From contig NZ_CP062165.1 of NCBI RefSeq assembly GCF_014844075.1, forward strand, positions 2,790,001 through 2,854,000: a DNA stretch of 64,000 nucleotides, written 5' to 3'. Below the pieces are notes generated by a model. It searched no databases, was not told where the DNA came from, and was given only the letters and a program-made list of their open reading frames with translations. The translations under genes were made by a program, and so were the position numbers. This document shows positions 7,418-48,793 of the stretch, in pieces (positions within the stretch are counted from its first letter, which is position 1; the number at the start of each line of letters is the position of its first letter). This stretch comes from Paenibacillus sp. JNUCC-31 (GTDB taxonomy: Bacteria; Bacillota; Bacilli; Paenibacillales; Paenibacillaceae).

Positions 7418-7609
7418 TAACGAACTCAGGACACCTTATTCCAGCGATTAAAGTAGGGTGGGAATTCTAACGAACTCCAACTATCTTATTACCGAAAAAA
7501 ACCGCGAAATGGCGTTAGTATGAACGATATTGGCATAATAACAAGTCTGAGATTCGTTATAATAACGAAAACATGAAATAACCCCATATAAGACGTGCCA
7601 GGTTCGTTA
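7418..7609. repeat. Four-box palindromic element, copy A
   Basis: Four 23-bp boxes fit TAACGAA-N12-TAT-N. Two are direct, at 7418-7440 and 7468-7490. Two are inverted, at 7537-7559 and 7587-7609. Start-to-start spacing is exactly 50 bp in each half and the centre is 46 bp. The same layout occurs at 48601-48793 with a 47-bp centre. TAACGAA and the TAT are invariant in all eight boxes, while the 12 bases between them vary. Linker sequences share only weak similarity. It sits downstream of the SulP gene. The conserved geometry with variable interiors suggests protein-binding boxes or transposase-recognised ends more than a base-paired RNA. Confidence 0.8.
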
Positions 7610-48530: not shown

Positions 48531-48583
48531 AAATAAGGGGTGCAGCTCGTCATTCAAGTGAAATGACGAGCTGCACCCCTATT
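48531..48583. terminator. Very strong bidirectional terminator after potD
   Basis: GGGGTGCAGCTCGTCATT and its exact complement form an 18-bp perfect stem with a 7-base loop. On the minus strand it is followed by a long T run (TTATTTTTTT). It is about 270 bases past the potD stop, with the four-box element between, so that element is probably in the pot transcript. Confidence 0.85.
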
Positions 48584-48600
48584 TATTCTTTATCCAAATC

Positions 48601-48793
48601 TAACGAACTGTACACACGCTATTGGCGGTCATTTACGCTGATTGAAGTTTTAACGAATCAGAGAGACGCTATTCTGTCTAAGCAGCGGCTTATTGCCGTT
48701 TAAACACCTTTTTTATAAAGAATAGCTTCGCTGGAGTTCGTTAGCCTTCGTAATCCATGCAAATCAGCCCAATAAGGTGTGGTAGATTCGTTA
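48601..48793. repeat. Four-box palindromic element, copy B
   Basis: Boxes TAACGAA-N12-TAT lie at 48601-48623 and 48651-48673 (direct) and 48721-48743 and 48771-48793 (inverted). Spacing is 50 bp within each half, with a 47-bp centre. Total 193 bp against 192 for copy A at 7418. The centre holds a small CGGC-TTATT-GCCG hairpin. It lies between the potD stop and its terminator. Confidence 0.8.

Follow-up and report, generated by a model that had tools for sequence, protein, structure and literature searches.

What is the role of a short DNA element that is built from four similar boxes in a fixed inverted geometry and occurs twice within a single stretch of a bacterial chromosome? We examined this question for Paenibacillus sp. 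JNUCC-31, whose genome (G000) comprises 7,551,121 bases in one contig; the window, that is, the whole stretch of 64,000 nucleotides analyzed, covers positions 2,790,001-2,854,000 of this contig (NZ_CP062165.1). Our analysis suggests that the four-box element is probably the rigid target of a cognate protein, and that the two make up a two-part system resembling REPIN-RAYT, although neither the protein nor the architecture is related. No description of the element was evident among the open-licence PMC papers listed, as judged by title or the start of the abstract, and together with its partner it would represent a novel class of two-part system in genomes.

Geometry, abundance and range of the four-box element

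Re-reading of the window bore out the original prediction, in which two loci were described as carrying eight boxes, all of the form TAACGAA-N12-TAT (Table 1). Each element consists of two direct boxes 50 bp apart, a centre-to-centre step of 62 or 72 bp, and a mirror pair. Boxes are 21-bp dyads of imperfect symmetry (TAACG-N11-CGYTA). The inner ones do not have the same consensus as the outer ones, and approximately one turn inward of the latter there is a weaker ATT. The original prediction had also called for a genome-wide count, which returned 49 exact TAACGAA-N43-TAACGAA pairs in the JNUCC-31 genome versus 0 for the reversed-pattern control, with further copies in relatives. The refuting outcome named there, namely an absence of further copies and a 50-bp spacing no more frequent than by chance, did not occur. 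From 20 copies we built a model based on sequence alone, which gave 132 rows at E ≤0.1 in the same genome (both strands counted); these collapsed to 67 places, 5 of which were not included in element-level scans. Among 59 genomes, including JNUCC-31, TAACGAA pairs at 50-bp spacing were present in 22, and controls gave 0 or 1 per genome and direction; genomes with only one or two exact pairs (e.g., G009, G029 and G038) may reflect chance for the exact pattern.

Element length was strongly restricted. A four-box scan that permitted any length from 176 to 199 and up to 3 mismatches identified elements of 183 (6), 192 (17), 193 (22) and 194 (2) bp in JNUCC-31 stretches. All 20 elements of G036 were 182 or 183 bp long, and all of those in G025 (19/19) and G011 (14/14) were 192-194 bp long; base-shuffled sequence (1.9 Mb) contained no elements. 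In a public genome collection, at least 120 loci with the element were detected. The 80 matches listed of these were from Paenibacillus, Cohnella, Saccharibacillus and one Paenibacillaceae metagenome-assembled genome, and the 97 elements with up to 2 mismatches in the 120 loci (duplicates kept) were all 182, 183, 192 or 193 bp long, although 150-259 bp were permitted. At two syntenic sites, a 183-bp copy was opposite a 193-bp copy. Given that the arms are constant at 50 bp and that lengths are nearly limited to 182/183 or 192-194 bp, the centre has two lengths, which differ by one helical turn.

The model, applied with stricter filters and with at most 43 candidates scored per genome, detected elements in 31 of the 59 genomes (JNUCC-31 included), and other families of the order were among these; G009, which has two exact pairs and no model match, was counted as element-negative. 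Other box types with the same geometry occurred across the order, including TAACGATYC, TAACGGAAC, TAACGGACGT and TAACGGACAC. For example, G010 and G020 had no exact TAACGAA pairs and many copies with TAACGATYC, and the copies read contained TAACGGAA in G046, G038 and G039, TAACGGACGT in G044 and TAACGGACAC in G041, with the 50-bp step unchanged. At least six box types were seen, and this concerted change of boxes between lineages suggests a coevolving reader protein.

As judged by their flanking genes, many copies are orthologous among JNUCC-31, G025 and G011. In 22 orthologue pairs, identity decreased from TAACGAA itself (0.97 in outer and 0.94 in inner boxes, values inflated by the fetching of orthologue loci through exact box pairs) to the remainder of the boxes (0.81 and 0.85, respectively, which are unaffected by such fetching), the 50-bp spacers (0.71), the centre (0.63) and the flanks (0.40 in an ungapped comparison); pairs below 0.6 identity were dropped.

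Elements were also present in four IMG/VR contigs called viral (L410-L413), with TAACGAAAC and TAACGGTTGC-like boxes. All four elements were 183 bp long, with 23 lengths permitted, and the partner gene discussed below was not in the contig DNA examined. No phage record contained the partner protein, and plasmids contributed one record, at 28% identity.

A linked protein with nuclease-like and winged-helix domains

The candidate partner is a protein of approximately 216 amino acids with a nuclease-like domain (Vsr/EDxHD fold) and a C-terminal winged helix. Its family matches were DUF559, MTES_1575 and winged-helix families, with no transposase family among the hits; the first partner sequence itself had no Pfam match. 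The fold of the catalytic domain agrees with an EDxHD/Vsr-type nuclease, and D75 and H96 are invariant in 59 of 59 sequences. They are candidate counterparts of the active-site Asp/His pair of Vsr, D51-H69 (PMC11879112). An E-x-Q or E-x-H motif was present in the 20 rows of the element clade, and five distant paralogues had E-x-D (four) or E-x-E (one). A TnsA identity (Foldseek E 0.027) was too weak to claim, and a defence system was rejected, being suggested by a single SoFic match (E 0.01) for one of four proteins. G041, G048 and G056 each had 10 or 11 matches to the partner protein, and the distant ones examined were without recognisable four-box elements.

Elements adjoin this gene. Among 22 close homologues (E 3e-75 or better, with the broken fragments L325 and L334 left out), 15 had an element within 1.5 kb, and in several cases the element begins at the stop codon. 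Five of the 15 were from the discovery set; outside it, 10 of 17 were linked. None of the 25 distant matches examined had a TAACG-geometry element beside the gene, and the same search in 1.0 Mb of shuffled sequence gave 0 elements. Weak hits of an unbiased four-box search beside distant paralogues (25/28 for L326 and L328; 26/28 for L329, which is AT-rich and of length 159) were not accepted. In G046 and in G038, two paralogues adjoin elements, which are of two box types. Three clustered elements were observed beside the partner gene both at L092 (in G036) and at L202.

Gene and element also tend to occur together. Within the genus, 13 of 21 element-positive genomes carry the gene, whole or broken, and 15 element-negative genomes lack a close homologue; one of the latter (G019) has a distant one (E 9e-20). 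Six genomes with an intact gene had 62, 33, 53, 68, 45 and 58 exact pairs, versus 49, 18, 3, 13, 31, 8, 18, 18, 13, 4, 4 and 43 in 12 genomes with no intact gene (p 0.002, although these are not independent points; G010, G020 and G029, which have another box, were left out). The gene is broken by a stop, frameshift or truncation in G020, G010, G012, JNUCC-31 itself, G024 and G028 (L316, L317, L320, L324, L325 and L334). When perfect copies of G016 were followed to their orthologues, 14 of 17 were still perfect in G023 and G025, where the gene is intact, versus 3 of 10 in G022 and G024, where it is absent or broken, at a cut (88/114) chosen after the scores had been seen; the script's own cut (76) gave 17 of 20 versus 4 of 12. 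The windows for this test were partly placed by exact pairs, above all in G025. In addition, the recognition helix of the protein differs with box type, and all TAACGG-box proteins fall in one clade (support 97/90).

The idea that a protein binds the four sites, one of the options in the original prediction, is thus well supported at the sequence level: the fixed geometry, the 10-bp switch of the centre, the conservation of boxes, the lineage-specific boxes and the linked winged-helix protein suggest a protein positioned on four phased sites. Each box would probably be bound by a dimer of the protein, with the winged helix making the contact. Because the boxes are in phase on the DNA, four such dimers could join in a single wrapped or looped complex, in which the nuclease-like domain may or may not cut. 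The partner gene, often located among its own elements, would keep, and probably at times copy, an extragenic population of elements, whose boxes would decay once the gene is lost. The host may also benefit, perhaps through an effect on the origin-proximal half of its chromosome.

Several points weigh against this interpretation, in addition to the late choice of the decay cut, the placement of decay windows by exact pairs and the selection of orthologue pairs noted above. The partner gene was chosen post hoc from the neighbours of elements, and two other gene clusters adjoin more loci than it does. Seven of the 22 close homologues (those in G013, G039 and G052, one of those in G041, that of G012, which has a late frameshift, and the broken copies of G010 and G020) had no element in the 1.5-2 kb searched. 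Elements persist without the gene in G011, G034 and G001, and are still numerous in JNUCC-31 (frameshift) and in G010 and G020 (in-frame stop). The agreement between protein clade and box type involves few independent changes, box type also tracks species kinship, and the genomes compared are related and hence not independent points. Foldseek gave no match at E ≤0.001. Finally, two sites were checked for an empty state (the L024 site and that of element 2 in G025), and neither was cleanly empty.

Known systems, chromosomal placement and alternative explanations

REPIN-RAYT systems consist of dispersed extragenic elements and a chromosomal gene beside its own element type, with largely vertical inheritance (PMC3116915; PMC8049555). 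Several likenesses are evident: in both systems, elements are extragenic, dispersed and sometimes tandem; a nuclease-type chromosomal gene adjoins its own element type (here for 15 of 22 close homologues); several gene types, each with its own element type, coexist in one genome; inheritance is largely vertical; and elements are more numerous in genomes that hold the gene (here p 0.002, 6 versus 12 genomes). However, RAYT is a tyrosine (HUH) transposase, whereas the protein described here has a Vsr/EDxHD-like nuclease domain and a winged helix. The four boxes at fixed 50 / 62 or 72 / 50 spacing, the lack of a covarying hairpin (0 of 9 pairs with two-sided change), the origin-half bias and the number of homologues, which in some families reaches 11 per genome, also set the present system apart. 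It differs as well from EDxHD homing endonucleases (I-Bth0305I), Vsr and DUF559 proteins in that the putative targets are dozens of dispersed elements and not one allele. The ends of Tn7 contain repeated sites of about 22 bp in inverted arrays, and TnsA combines a nuclease fold with a winged helix. The present elements share such repeated, inverted sites, and a TnsA match was mentioned above; their centre, however, is fixed at two lengths.

If the proposed two-part system is right, REPIN-RAYT has an independent counterpart with a different nuclease and DNA architecture, and the maintenance of small-element populations linked to a nuclease gene of the chromosome has occurred repeatedly in bacteria. 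The at least six box types offer a natural series of protein-DNA recognition pairs, the phased four-site nucleoprotein complex is a candidate for structure work, and the system provides a way of testing whether element populations organise the origin half. A more far-reaching version, which we offer tentatively, is an ancient, order-wide system in which the nuclease-winged-helix protein coevolves with phased four-site elements, its recognition helix changing with the box, while the complex would serve the origin half (e.g., as a bridging, loading or repair station) and paralogues would run their own sets of elements.

Placement of the elements was not even. The origin was marked by dnaA or, in G022 and G024, by the position of noc close to the end of the contig. 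Of 243 places in eight genomes, 208 were in the origin-proximal half (p < 0.002 in each genome), including 27 of 30 places in G036, which belongs to another family; 12 of the 243 were in the outermost fifth. In this count, some genome lengths were rounded and tandem copies were counted singly; seven of the eight genomes were from one genus, and the counts are therefore not independent. The bias is confounded with the order of genes, which is in general more strongly conserved close to the origin, and some of it could stem from vertical retention of copies there. With regard to gene context, 100 elements in four genomes occupied 48 convergent, 51 tandem and 1 divergent gaps, versus 22, 126 and 59, respectively, among 207 element-free control gaps of at least 250 bp; 26 element-bearing gaps in the control stretches were convergent (15), tandem (9) or divergent (2), and 85 named loci analyzed with a crude gene caller gave 33, 36 and 16, respectively.

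These data bear on the chromosome-organising site that was another option of the original prediction. Sites of Noc, SlmA, MatP and RacA are likewise dispersed and regionally biased; they are short single palindromes, whereas the elements are four-site arrays. That the elements organise or segregate the origin half in a similar way, bridged by the linked or another protein whose nuclease activity is lost or irrelevant, is compatible with the origin-half bias, the phased multi-site geometry, the near absence of elements from divergent gaps and the diverse flanking genes, which had no common function in the clusters listed. Yet we are inclined to doubt it: conserved gene order alone could have retained old copies near the origin; gene and elements are both missing from many Paenibacillus, which indicates that the role is not essential; and the orientation of elements was independent of the replication fork (14 of 30 were fork-oriented). 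Noc itself was rejected as the box reader, as it is present in 59 of 59 genomes and elements in 31 of 59, with no correlation between them. The same gap counts make operators of a transcription-factor regulon very improbable. Boxes are dyads, many homologues bear the automatic NCBI name transcriptional regulator, and divergent gaps were not absent from the named loci or the element-bearing control gaps (16 of 85 and 2 of 26); nevertheless, a single divergent gap among the 100 elements and the diversity of the flanking genes argue against such operators.

The remaining option of the original prediction, a non-autonomous mobile element, held in part. Three JNUCC-31 copies (L007 at 2.738 Mb, L038 at 4.716 Mb and L042 at 4.930 Mb) are 98-99% identical units of approximately 295 bp with sharp borders and inverted ends, GGGATGTCCC / GGGCTGTCTC-like, around the four boxes, and near-identical tandem copies were found in G036 and G041. 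These copies fit an ordinary family of miniature inverted-repeat transposable elements moved by an unrelated transposase, with boxes as transposase sites. We consider this improbable: no target duplication was seen by eye in the three copies, the left-end hairpin motif was near only 11 of 67 places, many copies are orthologous, and from family to family the boxes and the length of the centre persist whereas everything else varies. No clean insertion was evident either, given the remnant-like sequence at apparently empty sites. Six genomes compared at the L024 site had no four-box element at up to 8 mismatches; L396 and L398, aligned with the G025 type, had sequence resembling a remnant where the first box would lie, and L400 was not cleanly alignable. 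A structured RNA, such as a dispersed RNA gene or terminator, is hardly credible despite the hairpin beside one arm of several copies. RNAalifold predicted 9 pairs in 20 copies, none with two-sided change (consensus energy -4.46 kcal/mol over 194 columns), the window had no Rfam match at the gathering score, and spacing is fixed although the arms differ in sequence, in agreement with the original view that a fully paired stem is not the main constraint.

Features of the window

Element 1 has an orthologue in the same gene neighbourhood of G025 (L064), and the G025 site syntenic with element 2 retains one decayed outer box only.

Table 1. Four-box elements and adjacent hairpin in the window (positions are those of the window)
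Feature	Position	Strand	Description
Four-box element 1	7418..7609	.	192 bp; sequence-model match 98.5 bits, E 1.3e-27
Outer box 1L	7418..7438	+	Element 1
Inner box 1L	7468..7488	+	Element 1; 50 bp after outer box 1L
Inner box 1R	7539..7559	-	Element 1; inverted
Outer box 1R	7589..7609	-	Element 1; inverted; 50 bp after inner box 1R
Hairpin, terminator-like	48537..48579	.	18-bp stem, then T-rich sequence; 21 bp left of element 2; kept in G025
Four-box element 2	48601..48793	.	193 bp; sequence-model match 121.1 bits, E 1.3e-34
Outer box 2L	48601..48621	+	Element 2
Inner box 2L	48651..48671	+	Element 2; 50 bp after outer box 2L
Inner box 2R	48723..48743	-	Element 2; inverted
Outer box 2R	48773..48793	-	Element 2; inverted; 50 bp after inner box 2R

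We are unsure whether the hairpin is part of element 2; several other copies also have a hairpin at a similar position beside one arm. A hairpin-related motif, TGTCYCATAAGTCATGA, was observed at 23 places in the genome, 11 of which were 34-114 bp from an element and on the same arm side in the orientation of the model.
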